A stretch of 64,000 bases of DNA, taken from contig NZ_KI543236.1 of assembly GCF_000496835.1 (NCBI RefSeq), forward strand, positions 707,636 to 771,635, given 5' to 3'. The translations under genes were made by a program, and so were the position numbers. Below the pieces are notes generated by a model. It made no database searches, had not been told where the DNA came from, and saw nothing but the letters and a program-made list of their open reading frames with translations. Positions 10,653-38,268 of the stretch are shown here, piece by piece (position 1 is the first letter of the stretch; each line of letters opens with the position of its first letter). This DNA is from Thalassobacillus devorans MSP14. GTDB taxonomy: Bacteria > Bacillota > Bacilli > Bacillales > Halobacillaceae.

Positions 10653-10723
10653 GTCTTCATTTTATCAATGACAAATAGAATAGAGGGCGGACGAACATCC
10701 CCGCTCTATGGACAGGCTGCTTT

Positions 10724-10788
10724 TCATAGTCGGTTCATTTACGGTAAACCGGTAGAGACTTGCAGGCCATATCCCTGCGATTATATGA
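10724..10788 (-). promoter_or_regulatory. Purine (guanine-type) riboswitch aptamer
   Basis: Reading the minus strand, the segment shows the conserved purine aptamer: TCATATAATCGC (P1 and J1/2), GGATATGGCCTGC, the J2/3 word TCTCTACC, the loop words GTTTACCGTAAAT and GAACC, and the closing GACTATGA. The base that pairs with the ligand is the C of GACTAT, which marks guanine/hypoxanthine rather than adenine specificity. A -10 box TATAAT occurs on the minus strand at 10793-10798, so the aptamer is at the very start of the transcript. Confidence 0.95.
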
Positions 10789-11066
10789 AAAGATTATAAG
10801 TTGGATGATTTAAATACGAATAATAAGTAATTATGATTATATATTGTTCGTATAATAAATAATCTACATGAAAAATTCCCGGATGTCAAAGCATTTTAAA
10901 CATATAATCTAAAGTCAGCCCTGTAATCGCTCAAATTGTTTATAAACGGAAATATTTTGAAAATTATCTTGTGAAAATGGGGAGGCATTGGAATAATTAA
11001 AAGTGACGCTTCAAAATCGGTTTTTAGTTTGTAGGAGTTACAGCTTTTACAGAAAGAAGGGGAGAC

Positions 11067-21762: not shown

Positions 21763-22263
21763 ATGATGGGTGATAAAATACAAAAAATCACGCCGAACTT
21801 ATGGTTTGAAAACCAAGCGGAAGAAGCAGCGGCTTTCTATACTTCCATATTCAAAGATTCCGGGATTGTAAGAGTCACACGCTATATTAACGAAGGTCAG
21901 GAAATCCACGGCATGTCTGAAGGGACAGTGATGACGGTGGAGTTCCAGCTGGAAGGCCAAAGGTTCGTCGCGTTAAATGGCGGGCCCCATTTCCATTTTA
22001 CAGAAGCCATCTCGTTTATTGTCCATTGCGATACCCAGGATGAAGTGGACTACTATTGGGAGAAACTTTCGGACGGAGGAGACGAAAAAGCACAGCAATG
22101 TGGCTGGCTGAAAGATAAATATGGAGTCTCCTGGCAGATCATCCCTGCACGAATTTCCGAATTACTTAGTAACCCTGACCCGGTAAAAGCTGAAAGCGCC
22201 ATGAAGGCCATGTTACAGATGAAGAAAATTGATATGAATGTATTAAAAGAAATCCATAAATGA
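21763..22263 (+). CDS. PhnB/YjdN-like VOC protein
   Basis: The 166-residue product matches the PhnB-like (3-demethylubiquinone methyltransferase-like) VOC group: ITPNLWFENQAEEAAAFYTSIF, FVALNGGPHFHFTEAISFIVHC, and CGWLKDKYGVSWQIIP. Such proteins lack a proven enzymatic role. AAGGAGGGTGAG precedes the ATG-ATG start. Downstream lies the first phased repeat array and then a terminator, so the array is probably in the 3' untranslated region of this operon. Confidence 0.88.
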   Translation: MMGDKIQKITPNLWFENQAEEAAAFYTSIFKDSGIVRVTRYINEGQEIHGMSEGTVMTVEFQLEGQRFVALNGGPHFHFTEAISFIVHCDTQDEVDYYWEKLSDGGDEKAQQCGWLKDKYGVSWQIIPARISELLSNPDPVKAESAMKAMLQMKKIDMNVLKEIHK

Positions 22264-22376
22264 AACATTAGTAAGCGTAGTGGAAGAGACTTCCTCTCCA
22301 TGCGAATGCTTAGACGAGCATTTGGAAAAGGAAAGAAAATAGAGGGAGCTGCATGCTGTTTAGTATATGTGATTAA

Positions 22377-22532
22377 TTTCTAGTAAACAGTATTGCCTGT
22401 CTAGTAAAATTACTTTTCTGTCTAGTAAATTTTAGTTTTTGTCGAGTAAAACCTTCCAAATATCTAGTAAAAATTCGAGTTTGTCTAGTAACCGTTCCCA
22501 CCTGTCTACTAATAAAGAAATTTGTCTCGTAT
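22377..22532. repeat. Phased repeat array A: core TGTCTAGTAAA, 21-bp period, 8 copies
   Basis: Cores begin at 22377, 22398, 22419, 22440, 22461, 22482, 22503 and 22523: seven copies at exactly 21 bp and the last at 20. The 10-base core is TGTCTAGTAA with single substitutions (TTTCTAGTAA, TGTCGAGTAA, TATCTAGTAA, TGTCTACTAA, TGTCTCGTAT); the 11-base spacers are not conserved. Every core carries in-register TAG-TAA stops, so it is not coding on this strand. The array lies 114 bases after a stop codon and 19 bases before a terminator. Confidence 0.9.
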
Positions 22533-22550
22533 TCCCGCTTAATCAAGCTT

Positions 22551-22582
22551 ATCCGCCCTCGTGACGTGGGGCGGATTTTTGA
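22551..22582 (+). terminator. Terminator downstream of array A
   Basis: ATCCGCCC pairs with GGGCGGAT across a 10-base loop, then TTTTTGATT. It closes the VOC operon after the array. Confidence 0.8.
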
Positions 22583-22658: not shown

Positions 22659-23120
22659 ATGAAGGTTCCATTTTTCTTATCGGCAATCATTGTAATATCC
22701 GTATTGACGGCCTGTCAGCAGGTAGATGAGCAACCTGATGCCAAAGCCCAACTCAGTCCGGAGACAGCTATTCAAAGAGGGAATGTCGTCAATGTACATG
22801 GCGAGATATACAATCTGGAGCGGTTTGAAAAATTTTTGAGTAATGTGGATGCAGGTAAGAAAGATGAAGTCCGGATTACCACCTATACCATCGAAGGTGA
22901 TCCTATTTTTTACAAGCTGGAATTTGACGGTGAAAAAATTCATTATACGTATGACAACACCATGGATGCATATGCGGATACGGGAAAAGGAATCAGAGAG
23001 GCGGAATGTGCGGATATTGTAAGCACAAAAACAAAGGGCGAAAGGCGTTATGAGTTGAGCAGGTGTAATTCCAGTACCGGAGAATCTTTCTCCTTTGTTG
23101 TTCCGGAACCGGAGGCTTAA
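22659..23120 (+). CDS. Lipoprotein with DUF4362-like domain
   Basis: ATG 22659 is preferred: GGGGGAG lies 7 bases upstream, and the following MKVPFFLSAIIVISVLTACQQ is a complete lipoprotein signal (lipobox LTAC, Cys20). The mature part contains GNVVNVHGEIYNLERFEKFL and RITTYTIEGDPIFYKLEFDG, which I recognise as the DUF4362 pattern. It should be anchored to the outer face of the membrane. Function is unknown. It opens a plus-strand series of accessory genes spaced closely to 26.96 kb. Confidence 0.85.
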   Translation: MKVPFFLSAIIVISVLTACQQVDEQPDAKAQLSPETAIQRGNVVNVHGEIYNLERFEKFLSNVDAGKKDEVRITTYTIEGDPIFYKLEFDGEKIHYTYDNTMDAYADTGKGIREAECADIVSTKTKGERRYELSRCNSSTGESFSFVVPEPEA

Positions 23121-25093: not shown

Positions 25094-25916
25094 AGTAAAT
25101 GGAGACAGTAATAAACCAGATTTCCATCTTAATGAAATAGGCAAAGAAATAGAAGCATTGCTGGGATCTAAACTGGTCGGCTTATATTTGCACGGATCCC
25201 TTGCCATGGGTGGTTTTAATGCCAGTAACAGTGACATCGATCTCTTAGGAGTCACAAAAGCACGGCTCAACAATCTGGAAGCGCGTTACCTGACCGAACT
25301 CTTTTTAACAAAATCTACCCGTCCTTTTCCAATAGAAATTACCTTCATGCATGAACAGCAATTGGTGGATTGGGAGCATCCAAGCATGTTTGACTTCCAT
25401 TATAGTGAGTACTGGAGAGATGAATTCGAGCAGAAAAAAACGGGTGACACGTTCGTTAATGTGAATTGGAAGGATCCCGATTTGGCCGCTCATCTTACCG
25501 TTACCTATCATAAAGGAATTTGTTTAGCTGGAAAACCGACTCATGAAGTACTTCCGAGGGTGCCAGAAAAAGATTTTGTTGCTTCTATTCAAAATGATTA
25601 TTACGACTGTCTGGATAACATTGTGCATGATCCTGTGTACTGCACATTAAACTTGATTCGTTTTTATCGATATTTAAAAGCTGGTGACATTGTTTCCAAA
25701 CTGGAAGGGGCGAAGTGGGGGATCAGGACTCTTCCTGAAGAATTCCATACTATCATCCAATCGGTACTTGCAATCTATCAGGAAAACGACGACAGCATTG
25801 TTTTAGAAGCAGGGGAGCTGTTTAAAATCAAAGCGTTTTTAAAGGGGAAAATAGAAAATTTGTTAGAGCAAAACACGCGTAACAGCCCAAGGGGGATGAC
25901 TGATGGAGCAAAATAA
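25086..25916 (+). CDS. ANT-like nucleotidyltransferase with DUF4111 domain
   Basis: Residues 25-60 contain the nucleotidyltransferase signature GLYLHGSLAMGGFNASNSDIDLLGV (GSx..DxD metal site), and the C-terminal half resembles the aadA/DUF4111 helical domain (DCLDNIVHDPVYCTLNLIRFYRYLKAG). The family includes aminoglycoside adenylyltransferases (ANT(9), ANT(3'')). Substrate here is not proven. It overlaps the genes on both sides (8 and 14 bases), which shows a tight operon. Confidence 0.87.
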   Translation: MNKVNGDSNKPDFHLNEIGKEIEALLGSKLVGLYLHGSLAMGGFNASNSDIDLLGVTKARLNNLEARYLTELFLTKSTRPFPIEITFMHEQQLVDWEHPSMFDFHYSEYWRDEFEQKKTGDTFVNVNWKDPDLAAHLTVTYHKGICLAGKPTHEVLPRVPEKDFVASIQNDYYDCLDNIVHDPVYCTLNLIRFYRYLKAGDIVSKLEGAKWGIRTLPEEFHTIIQSVLAIYQENDDSIVLEAGELFKIKAFLKGKIENLLEQNTRNSPRGMTDGAK

Positions 25917-26961
25917 GATTGCGGCTAAATTTCTGGATTTTGCTGAACTGGAGTGTAAAGGATCAAGCGCTTTGTATGAGTTCCTGGCTATCAAAGTTGC
26001 TGGTAATGAAGAGCTGCTCCAATTAAGTTCGCATGCGAGAAAAGGACAGCCGATACCTAATTTGTTACTTGGGGCAGTCCACCAGTTATTGTTATCAGGG
26101 AAAACGTATGAACTCGGTAACTTTTACCCGAGTATTACAGAGAAACCAAAGCAGGTGGAAGATTCATTTTCCAGTTTTCTTGATTTTTGTCGTACCTATC
26201 GAAAAGAAATAATAGCAACTATGCAGGAAAAACTCGTGCAAACGAACGAAGTGAGACGCTGTGCGTATCTTTATCCGCTTTTTTGTTACATACAAAAGAA
26301 AACAGGGCGCTCTTTGTCATTGATTGAGATTGGAACAAGCGCAGGTCTTCAATTGTTATGGGATCAGTATAGTTATTCTTATGGTGGGGACTGTTCCTAT
26401 GGGAATAAGGCTTCAGCTGTACACTTATCTTCAAAAGTAAGACAGGGAAGCATGCCGGAGCTCCTTGATAACGCCCCCCCTGTGGCTTCCCGCGTAGGCG
26501 TGGACCTGCATGTCAGTGACCTGAAGGAGGAGGAAGACGCCTTATGGCTGAAGGCACTTATATGGCCGGAACATCAGGAAAGGCTGGAGACTTTTGATAA
26601 AGCGGTGAAGCAGTTCAGTAAATCTCCTCCTTCCTTGATCGAAGGGGATGGCGTCTCGATGCTGGAAGAACTTGCTGCCCAAGCCCCCTCCGCCAGCACG
26701 CTTTGCATTTTTCATACCCATGTCGCCAATCAGATGCCCCGGAAAGTGAAAGAGGAATTGCAGCAGAAAGTGAGTGCAATTGGGCGTAAGCGGGATGTAT
26801 GTCACATCTACAATAATATTTATGACAGGAACCTCCATCTCGATTATGTAATAAATGGAGTAGGTTATGCTGAAACAATTGGGGAGACTGATGGACATGG
26901 GCGTTGGTTCGACTGGGGTGTGAAAGGCTGTTACCTCCAGGGAAACGTGTCTAGTAAATGA
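25903..26961 (+). CDS. DUF2332 family protein
   Basis: The 352-residue protein carries the DUF2332 pattern: ECKGSSALYEFLAIKVAGNEELLQL at the N terminus, RCAYLYPLF, LIEIGTSAGLQLLWDQYSY (a SAM-methyltransferase-like glycine motif) and VFHTHV-like CIFHTHVANQM. Catalytic function is not established. It overlaps the preceding gene by 14 bases. The last codons and the stop lie inside the first core of phased repeat array B, so the array reaches into the coding sequence. Confidence 0.88.
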   Translation: MEQNKIAAKFLDFAELECKGSSALYEFLAIKVAGNEELLQLSSHARKGQPIPNLLLGAVHQLLLSGKTYELGNFYPSITEKPKQVEDSFSSFLDFCRTYRKEIIATMQEKLVQTNEVRRCAYLYPLFCYIQKKTGRSLSLIEIGTSAGLQLLWDQYSYSYGGDCSYGNKASAVHLSSKVRQGSMPELLDNAPPVASRVGVDLHVSDLKEEEDALWLKALIWPEHQERLETFDKAVKQFSKSPPSLIEGDGVSMLEELAAQAPSASTLCIFHTHVANQMPRKVKEELQQKVSAIGRKRDVCHIYNNIYDRNLHLDYVINGVGYAETIGETDGHGRWFDWGVKGCYLQGNVSSK

Positions 26962-27123
26962 TAGTTTTGTCTAGTAAAATTTAGATATTGTCTAGTAAAT
27001 TTTTGATAATGTCTAGTAAAAGACCGAGATTGTCTAGTTAACCTCACATATTGTCCAGTAAGCACCATGGACTGTCTAATAAATGCATCATGTTGTCTAG
27101 TAATTAGACGGTGTTCCAGTAAC
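26948..27123. repeat. Phased repeat array B: core TGTCTAGTAAA, 21-bp period, 9 copies
   Basis: Cores start at 26948, 26968, 26989, 27010, 27031, 27052, 27073 and 27094, then a degenerate last copy (GTTCCAGTAA) at 27113. The steps are 20, six times 21, then 19. The core is TGTCTAGTAA, with single changes TGTCTAGTTA, TGTCCAGTAA and TGTCTAATAA; 11-base spacers differ completely. It shares its core with array A. Copy 1 contains the end of the DUF2332 reading frame (GTG TCT AGT AAA TGA). Confidence 0.9.
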
Positions 27124-27230: not shown

Positions 27231-27307
27231 CCAGGCATATCACTGATTTTTCTGAAAAGACGAATATTAGCAAGCGTTGAATGTCATGGATATCCTATGG
27301 CAGGAGC

Positions 27308-27396
27308 GGCTTCTGGAGAGGGTGCACATCTCGTGCAGCGCCGAAGGGTTCATAATCTCAGGCAAAAGGACGGAAGAGGTACATACGATACCTTTT
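27308..27396 (+). promoter_or_regulatory. Glycine riboswitch (single aptamer)
   Basis: The segment contains the conserved glycine aptamer words: CTTCTGGAGAGGGTG, GCGCCGAAGGG and ATCTCAGGCAAAAGGAC. Only one complete aptamer is visible; the 70 bases upstream could form a partial (ghost) partner but I cannot align a second set of conserved words. A terminator follows at 27405-27436, so control is by premature termination. Confidence 0.88.
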
Positions 27397-36504: not shown

Positions 36505-38108
36505 ACAAGCGATTGTATGCGAATACTGGGGTGCTGACACGGCTTGTCTTCCGACAGGATCGGATAAGACTGACCATCTGGCTGGCAGCTTTCATCGTAG
36601 CAAACCTGCTGGTTGCCAATGCTTTTGCTACTTTATACCCTAGCCACGCCGAGCGCCAGGCAATGGTGGAAACAATGATGAATCCGGCGGTTACGGCAAT
36701 GGTCGGACCGGTATATGGCTTGGATAACTATACGGTCGGTGTCATGCTGGCACATGAGATGCTGCTATTGACTGCGGTGGTGGTTGGCGTCATGAATATT
36801 CTGCTGGTAGCCCGCCATACAAGAGCGGAAGAGGAAGACGGCCGAGTGGAACTGATTCGTGCCTTACCGACCGGACGGCTGTCCAATGTCGCTTCCACTT
36901 TATTGGTCTATGTGATGACCAATATCCTGCTGGCACTGCTGGTCGCTGGTTCTTTGATGCTGCTTGGAATTGATAGTATCGATGCTGCGGGATCTTTGTT
37001 GTTTGGTGCCTCGCTTGGTGTAACTGGTATCTTTTTTGCCGGACTTACGGCGGTTTTCGCTCAATTGTCTGAAAGCGGAAGGGGTACAGTCGGTCTTGGA
37101 ATGGCGGTATTGCTGATCGCTTATATGATCCGGGCGGTGGGAGATGTCAGCAGTGAAACGTTATCGATGTTTTCCCCGTTCGGTTGGATAGTCCGCACGG
37201 AGACTTTTGTCAATAATTACTGGTGGCCAATATTCGTCACACTCGGAATTTCGGTGCTTTTCATAGGGGCAGCTTTTTACCTGAATGCCATTCGTGATAT
37301 GGAAGCAGGATTCCTTCCTTCCAAAGCAGGTAAAAAACAGGCGTCCCGTTTGCTGCTCAGTCCATTCGGGCTGGCTGTACGGCTGCAGCGGACCGGAATC
37401 ATTTCCTGGGCAATCGCAATGTTCGTGCTTGGTGCGTCATATGGATCGATTCTTGGCGATTTGGAGTCGTTTTTTGCAGAAAACAAAATGATGAAACAGC
37501 TCCTGGGCCCTGTGTCCGGCGTTACCTTGACAGAGCAGTTCATCACGATGCTGATGGCGGTACTGGCGATGATCAGTACCATACCGGCGATGATGTTCCT
37601 GTTGAAATTGAAAGGAGAAGAGGGAAAAGGGCGGGCCGCACATCTTCTCGTCCGCTCGGTTTCAAGAATCCGGCTGCTTGGCAGCTTTCTGGTATTAGCT
37701 CTGGCAGGTGGCTGGGTCATGCTGTCGCTTGCTGCGCTTGGCTTAGGTGTGGTCGGTAATGCGGTCATGGAAGAAGGTATTTCTTTGGGGACCTTTTATC
37801 AATCAGCCATGGTTTATTTGCCTGCCATGTGGGTGATGCTCGGGCTGGCTGTACTGCTGCTCGGCTGGGCTCCAAAGGTAACAGTGATCTCATGGTTGTA
37901 TCTGGTTTATTCTTTTATTGTTGTATATATGGGGGGATTATTCCAACTTGATGAATGGGTGGTCAACATGAGCCCATTCGGCCATGTGCCAGAGCTTCCT
38001 GTCGAGGAAGTCAGCTGGATGAGCTTGCTCGGGTTGACCGGAATCGCGGTGCTCCTGCTTGTGGCAGGGGCAGTTGGATACCGGAAGCGGGATGTCCAGG
38101 GCGGCTAG
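36501..38108 (+). CDS. ABC transporter permease, polyketide antibiotic exporter-like
   Basis: The 535-residue protein has about 12 hydrophobic helices in two six-helix halves (start of second half near LLLSPFGLAVRLQRTGIISWAI). The first part MVGPVYGLDNYTVGVMLAHEMLLL and RADGR-like HTRAEEEDGRVELIRALPTGR is the mark of this family (Tcr/YlxX-like exporters of antibiotics). Together with the upstream ATPase it forms a self-regulated export system; the substrate is unknown. The next feature downstream is phased repeat array C and then a terminator. Confidence 0.9.
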   Translation: MNKRLYANTGVLTRLVFRQDRIRLTIWLAAFIVANLLVANAFATLYPSHAERQAMVETMMNPAVTAMVGPVYGLDNYTVGVMLAHEMLLLTAVVVGVMNILLVARHTRAEEEDGRVELIRALPTGRLSNVASTLLVYVMTNILLALLVAGSLMLLGIDSIDAAGSLLFGASLGVTGIFFAGLTAVFAQLSESGRGTVGLGMAVLLIAYMIRAVGDVSSETLSMFSPFGWIVRTETFVNNYWWPIFVTLGISVLFIGAAFYLNAIRDMEAGFLPSKAGKKQASRLLLSPFGLAVRLQRTGIISWAIAMFVLGASYGSILGDLESFFAENKMMKQLLGPVSGVTLTEQFITMLMAVLAMISTIPAMMFLLKLKGEEGKGRAAHLLVRSVSRIRLLGSFLVLALAGGWVMLSLAALGLGVVGNAVMEEGISLGTFYQSAMVYLPAMWVMLGLAVLLLGWAPKVTVISWLYLVYSFIVVYMGGLFQLDEWVVNMSPFGHVPELPVEEVSWMSLLGLTGIAVLLLVAGAVGYRKRDVQGG

Positions 38109-38130: not shown

Positions 38131-38268
38131 AGAGAAGACATTGGTAAAAGAGAGTGCAGAGCGTTAGAGAGCCAAAACCGGGATTAAGAGAGAATTCAGT
38201 AGTATGAGAGACAAAACTGAGATTAAGAGAGACACTTCCAGTAATATGAGAGACAATCTCAGAGAAAT
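38131..38268. repeat. Phased repeat array C: core TRAGAGAGACA, mostly 18/21-bp steps
   Basis: GAGAGA-type cores are aligned at about 38132, 38150, 38167, 38188, 38206, 38227 and 38248, with a weak last copy at 38262. The last four clear steps are 21, 18, 21 and 21. The best copies read TAAGAGAGACA and TATGAGAGACA; spacers are unlike. The array starts about 23 bases after the ABC permease stop codon and ends before a terminator. It is more degenerate than arrays A and B. Confidence 0.7.

Follow-up and report, generated by a model that had tools for sequence, protein, structure and literature searches.

Several types of dispersed or clustered short repeats have been described in bacterial genomes. 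STAR elements of Staphylococcus are interspersed intergenic direct repeats without known function, in which copies of a GC-rich 14-mer core, T(G/A/T)TGTTG(G/T)GGCCC(C/A), are separated by locus-specific spacers of at least 40 bp, although most loci have only one copy (PMC3532100). REP elements are palindromic units of 20-40 bp (PMC3733652), which alternate in orientation in the composite BIMEs (PMC2817692), are species-specific in sequence, are frequent between convergent genes and bind gyrase (PMC1525189). Plasmid iterons and partition centromeres consist of direct repeats of about two helical turns that are bound co-operatively by one protein, the repeats of iteron arrays being 17-22 bp long and next to a rep gene or origin, while CRISPR arrays alternate repeats and spacers that are both longer than about 20 bp. 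Lastly, the MerR-like protein BldC binds direct repeats in promoters, spaced one helical turn apart, as head-to-tail co-operative multimers and distorts the DNA (PMC5859096).

Here, we describe intergenic arrays of about eight copies of an 11-nt core, TGTCTAGTAA, at steps of 20-21 bp, which resemble each of these systems in some respects. STAR elements are nearest to them as repeats and REP/BIME elements in placement, but neither matches in core or spacing. They share with STAR elements an intergenic location, several loci per genome and spacers that differ by locus, but neither the core nor the spacing, as the spacers are about 10 nt long; helical phasing or a fixed copy number did not come to our attention in the description of STAR elements. 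Like REP elements, they are frequent between convergent genes, but the cores of the two main arrays studied here (A and B, Table 1) all point one way, and the core has only a CTAG centre instead of a palindromic unit. The unit length is that of an iteron, but there are about ten arrays dispersed over the chromosome; arrays A and B are not next to a rep gene or origin, their neighbours being PF06983, DUF4362, DUF2332 and Aminotran_5 genes, and three arrays on the contig of dnaA lie about 96-319 kb from it. In searches with a low-complexity filter, array A had only two short plasmid hits (27-28 nt, E 0.2 and 0.6), and an array of genome G222, another genome of the order, had none on plasmids or phages. 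A CRISPR array does not fit, since cores of 10-11 bp and spacers of 10 bp are too short and since the spacers align between orthologous arrays. We saw no description of such arrays in the literature, although our searches covered open-access papers in PubMed Central only and not subscription journals.

The analysed window is a stretch of 64,000 nucleotides from Thalassobacillus devorans MSP14 (GCF_000496835.1, contig NZ_KI543236.1, positions 707,636 to 771,635); in the following, G, L and C numbers denote genomes, retrieved loci and contigs of the host genome, respectively. A first-pass annotation of this window had described eight cores, seven of them at exact 21-bp steps and the last at a 20-bp step, with unconserved 11-bp spacers. 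This observation is confirmed, with three corrections: a ninth core, TGTTTAGTATA, precedes the first one named by 20 bp, so that both end steps are 20 bp; the exact word TGTCTAGTAAA occurs in only two of the nine cores; and with an 11-nt core, the spacer is 10 nt long. The array is not a chance pattern. Single cores with up to 2 mismatches occur 28 times in the window against 14.6 expected (0 of 100 shuffles reach 28), pairs of cores 21 bp apart with up to 3 mismatches yield 40 matches in the whole genome (including a coding look-alike at C1 858 kb) against 0 for the reversed pattern, and chains of four or more 8-mers at 20-22 bp yield 0 in 704 kb of Markov-shuffled sequence. The hairpin following array A was read by eye; a simple hairpin routine did not flag it in the window, but did so in G001, the genome holding the ortholog of array A, which corresponds to T. 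cyri loci of the scan described below. In G001, the sequence of the gene before the orthologous array does not align with the PF06983 gene.

Table 1. Arrays, neighbouring genes and other elements, with positions in the window unless a retrieved locus is named
Feature	Position	Strand	Description
Array A	22357..22533	+	Nine cores at 22357, 22377, 22398, 22419, 22440, 22461, 22482, 22503 and 22523; steps 20,21,21,21,21,21,21,20
Terminator-like hairpin	22551..22580	+	ATCCGCCC...GGGCGGAT, then T-run, directly after array A; also present in G001
Gene before array A	21763..22263	+	Pfam PF06983 (3-dmu-9_3-mt)
Gene after array A	22659..23120	+	Pfam PF14275 (DUF4362)
Array B	26948..27104	+	Eight cores, first step 20, then six of 21; the first core holds the last codons of the gene before it
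Gene before array B	25903..26961	+	Pfam PF10094 (DUF2332); ends inside the first unit of array B
Probable array of a related dialect	38167..38256	-	Core TGTCTCTC on the minus strand (GAGAGAC repeat), steps of about 20-21 bp, after the gene ending at 38108; does not fit the eight-unit frame
Glycine riboswitch	27303-27383		Between array B and an aminotransferase class-V gene
Purine riboswitch	10707-10808	-	
Array-like open frame	L029:6317-6505		Host genome, C1 about 858 kb; 62 codons
Filobacillus milosensis array	L099:7549-7684		Between genes read by eye as trpC and trpF
Tandem coding blocks	L008:580-1173		Host genome, C1 about 867 kb; beside an array

In the host genome (3.94 Mb in nine contigs), we count ten arrays, at C1 730, 734.6, 809.7, 830.7 and 868 kb, C2 828, 926 and 1051 kb, C3 473 kb and C4 24 kb, leaving out a weak match at C1 683 kb and the look-alike at C1 858 kb; five of the ten thus lie in C1:730-868 kb. 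A pattern scan of genome contigs yielded 37 stretches, of which 26 are found in mostly salt-loving Bacillaceae (Thalassobacillus cyri and devorans 10, Piscibacillus salipiscarius 11, Gracilibacillus lacisalsi 3, Filobacillus milosensis 1, Aquisalibacillus elongatus 1) and all chain to five or more cores; of the 11 elsewhere, only L133 (Gemmatimonadaceae) chains to four or more. In searches with a sequence-only profile of five units, 4 of 44 genomes of the family match under stricter filters, all in the genus Thalassobacillus, which is represented by 5, and in the order, 14 of 199 genomes match at E 1e-4, in 13 of 98 genera.

We compiled 51 distinct arrays of this core, a set that includes orthologs and the look-alike L029. 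Of these, 27 have exactly eight units, 8 have six, 7 have seven, 5 have five, 3 have nine and 1 has ten. In the 38 arrays with seven or more units, the first step is 20 bp in 31 and the last in 29, whereas inner steps are 21 bp in 169 of 188 (Fisher p 2e-29, with steps taken as independent although orthologs are included). Eleven arrays have exactly the steps 20,21,21,21,21,21,20, among them L078 of genome G002, which has a changed core; L086 and L090 of G002, also with changed cores, score well when this frame is imposed. The frame is shared by arrays with unrelated spacers in Thalassobacillus and Piscibacillus, but it is not universal: the three Gracilibacillus arrays (six units), the Filobacillus array (seven) and one Piscibacillus array (L117) have only 21-bp steps (L121 minus: 21s and one 22), and an array of G222, with another core, has 14 units.

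The first-pass annotation had proposed either a protein-binding array with all sites on one face of the DNA, 21 bp being two helical turns, or a 3' RNA element, and had named equally conserved spacers or recent tandem duplication as grounds for rejecting the former. Neither holds for this dialect as a whole, and the phased-binding interpretation is supported in part, although binding itself remains an inference. In eight pooled ortholog pairs, cores differ at 46 of 597 positions (7.7%), spacers at 109 of 552 (19.7%) and flanks at 154 of 833. Fourteen pairs were aligned, of which four others reuse the same loci and two (L013/L016, L081/L088) are arrays of one genome. Two of the eight pairs (L073/L132 and L027/L020) show no difference between core and spacer, and the core caller favours sequences near the consensus, which inflates core conservation. 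Spacers of one array are no more alike than spacers of different arrays of the same genome (0.388 versus 0.395), so that recent tandem duplication does not explain this dialect and the whole unit is not conserved between neighbours, as it would be in a minisatellite. The spacers are not wholly random, however: over 77 units, they carry a weak pyrimidine-then-purine trend, in which pyrimidines lead, followed by A and then T before the next core. At one junction, between two small genes before the Bax-inhibitor gene, the array is shared by four species, with cores kept and spacers changed; genome G000 has lost a unit, and the fifth species, G004, has a terminator-like hairpin there and no array, so the array is dispensable there.

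Four of the five genomes of the genus carry arrays of this core. The fifth, G004, has 0 TCTAGTAA pairs and no match to the five-unit profile, but has two other cores at 21-bp steps, ACACGCGTTT (19 matches; near-palindromic, so both strands count) and TTTATGCTCG (12 matches), of which the other four genomes have none and for which reversed controls are 0. Other genomes of the order show further core ‘dialects’, such as TTTACTAGCCA, TTTACTGTCCAAAC, TTTACTATCC, TTACTTGCC, TTTACTCGTGARTTT, CGCATAAA and TTCGGTAA, some with only four or five units; of 26 loci fetched with the profile, 23 show a chain of four or more and 3 do not. In 68 arbitrarily placed stretches (1.27 Mb; one of 239 bases was skipped), variable-spacer arrays were 3 at 21 bp, 1 at 20 bp and 1 mixed 20/21, while two further hits, at 27 and 45 bp, are one low-complexity stretch. 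One of the three, L145, lay in a stretch that was chosen knowingly, and genomes G143 and G222 were chosen because they had matches elsewhere, but this sample is fairer than an earlier period spectrum (20 variable arrays at 21 bp in 1.5 Mb), which includes stretches chosen for hits and whose near-exact column is contaminated by N runs. Some dialects show near-exact duplicated units and 42-bp alternation, which suggests how arrays grow; in G222, the stretches L203 and L199 contain very long arrays of 34 and 23 copies of TTTACTCGTGA in 20 kb, with near-exact duplicated units.

The arrays lie at gene 3' ends. Of the 51, 27 lie between convergent genes, 20 between co-directional genes (6 sense and 14 antisense, p 0.12 for a bias), 2 between divergent genes and 2 are unclassed, i.e. 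27 of 49 classifiable arrays are convergent and 2 of 49 divergent, against 30 and 45 of 166 comparable gaps in 304 kb of the host genome. Of the ten arrays of the host, eight are convergent, A and B being the exceptions. These contexts rest on a crude ORF caller, an earlier version of which gave 25 convergent, 16 antisense, 7 sense, 2 divergent and 1 edge, and orthologous junctions are sometimes classed differently (L074, L082); moreover, the background used ORFs of 80 codons and the arrays ORFs of 50, but with 50 or 100 codons, the background is 22 of 130 or 27 of 162 convergent. Arrays often begin within about ten bases of a stop codon, which for array B and the Filobacillus array lies in or against the first unit, and many touch terminator-like hairpins on one side or the other. 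We also considered a replication polarity, with the AGTAAA strand leading, but regard it only as a weak lead. In G222, 11 of 14 loci fit (p about 0.06; 11 of 13 without L202), as counted by hand, in part from a listing of only about 100 of 293 places and with the arm of some loci assumed, the misfits being the loci at 1.38 Mb, in L200 and in L202; in Thalassobacillus, where some loci are orthologs, 9 of 15 fit, 5 do not and 1 is ambiguous. A search for the B. subtilis dif site with a possibly inexact query found nothing in 4 genomes.

With about even confidence, we favour the explanation that the array is a DNA-level docking platform. Our analysis establishes the geometry (about eight directly repeated cores over about 155 bp, inner steps of two helical turns and usually end steps of 20 bp), the conserved cores and free spacers, the number of arrays in this genome, their placement at gene 3' ends, and lineage-specific cores with the same period. 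That a host-encoded, sequence-specific and so far unidentified protein binds each core is inferred from sequence alone, as is the further proposal that its copies assemble head-to-tail on one face of the DNA into a complex of about eight subunits that bends or wraps it, in analogy to BldC. The shortened end steps suggest, again by inference, that the end subunits are held differently, as in a closed or wrapped particle. Placed mainly between convergent genes and often beside terminators, such a complex would act on chromosome structure or as a transcription or supercoil boundary rather than as a promoter switch, and in this view lineages would differ in core because the specificity of the protein changed and the arrays followed. 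The variable unit number (24 of the 51 arrays have 5-7 or 9-10 units), the arrays with only 21-bp steps, the two ortholog pairs without extra core conservation and the empty site in G004 speak against this explanation. If the arrays do bind a dedicated protein, many spore-forming bacteria may have a chromosome-organizing or boundary system that is easily overlooked because its DNA word differs between species; the constant 20-21-bp phasing offers a way to look for it in any genome, and the differing words provide a natural experiment for finding the protein, which should change between species whose words differ. A bolder reading, which is not excluded but which we consider rather unlikely, is that of a widespread, undescribed chromosomal architecture of Bacillales, in which a fast-evolving, head-to-tail assembling protein builds a defined nucleoprotein particle at gene 3' ends and co-evolves with its recognition word, the word being replaced between species of one genus.

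Among the alternatives, all of which appear less likely, the best surviving one is that of dispersed repeats in the manner of STAR or REP/BIME elements, which spread and are kept by a mobilizing or repair mechanism that recognizes the core, without host function, and which lie at 3' ends because they do least harm there. The patchy taxonomic spread of one core (Thalassobacillus, Piscibacillus, Filobacillus, Aquisalibacillus, Gracilibacillus), the empty site in G004, the tandem expansion in other dialects and the precedent of STAR elements (PMC3532100) are in line with this possibility. However, the spacers give no sign of recent copying in this dialect, the frequent eight-unit geometry with 20-bp ends is not expected from drift or slippage, and cores evolve slower than flanks.

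An RNA element in 3' untranslated regions, i.e. repeated sites for an RNA-binding protein or a sponge for small RNAs, is doubtful. Arrays A and B do lie downstream of genes on the same strand, A before a terminator, and the Filobacillus array, within an apparent trp operon whose trpC frame ends inside the array's first stretch, is probably transcribed. Yet the orientation to the transcribing gene is mixed, two Gracilibacillus arrays (L116, L122) start just after the T-run of a terminator, and an exact 20/21 geometry has no obvious reason in single-stranded RNA, so that the proposed 3' RNA element is not supported. In folding comparisons, arrays A and B do not fold better than shuffles (z -0.40, -1.04, -1.04, 0.06), whereas two Piscibacillus arrays fold somewhat better (z -1.79 to -2.53); pairing of mirrored units, as in a long hairpin, is only marginally above expectation (0.349 versus 0.320, p 0.045, 13 arrays), and the best candidate for a fixed stem in each spacer reached z 2.9 over the position pairs tried; neither the long hairpin nor the fixed stem was retained. 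There was no Rfam match at gathering score in the window and none over array A at E up to 1.

Similarly doubtful is a topology or DNA-shape element, in which phased core/spacer steps make curved or wrappable DNA used by gyrase, HU or another general protein between convergent genes. The length of about 155 bp, the two-turn phasing, the convergent-gene bias and the gyrase binding of REP elements (PMC1525189) would agree with it, but general wrapping would need neither a strict 10-bp word nor a change of this word between species of one genus, and gyrase sites are roughly symmetric, whereas the cores of arrays A and B all point one way.

Coding heptad repeats, suggested by the seven-codon period, by the reverse-strand reading LLDKxxx, by the open frame in L029 (...LLDKLEDLLDKLEDLLE), whose LLDKLED heptads are written in the same 21-bp word on the reverse strand and which is either a coincidence or an array captured as a gene, by the Filobacillus array, which is open in one such frame, and by a depletion of stops in reverse frame 2 (10 versus 22.8 expected, 0 of 500 shuffles) that we ascribe, without proof, to linked letters at the core edge, are largely contradicted for this dialect, since all six frames have stops (13, 92, 10, 15, 138 and 24 in 92 units), reverse frame 0, the LLDK frame, shows no clear depletion (13 versus 16.8, P 0.15), the usual 20-bp end steps shift every frame (a stronger argument than the in-register TAG-TAA stops invoked by the first-pass annotation, as the core closes only some frames), and the L029 frame has no Pfam match and, among the fetched loci, only weak other hits, mostly to other arrays.

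Two further observations concern repeats at other loci. Seven viral contigs match the core pair, and five of them (L268, L270, L271, L272 and L273) carry three TGTCTAGT cores 22 bp apart, possibly representing one conserved viral locus. In the host genome, the tandem blocks in L008 translate to repeated HSRHKQPVLRKG...ACTFL segments.
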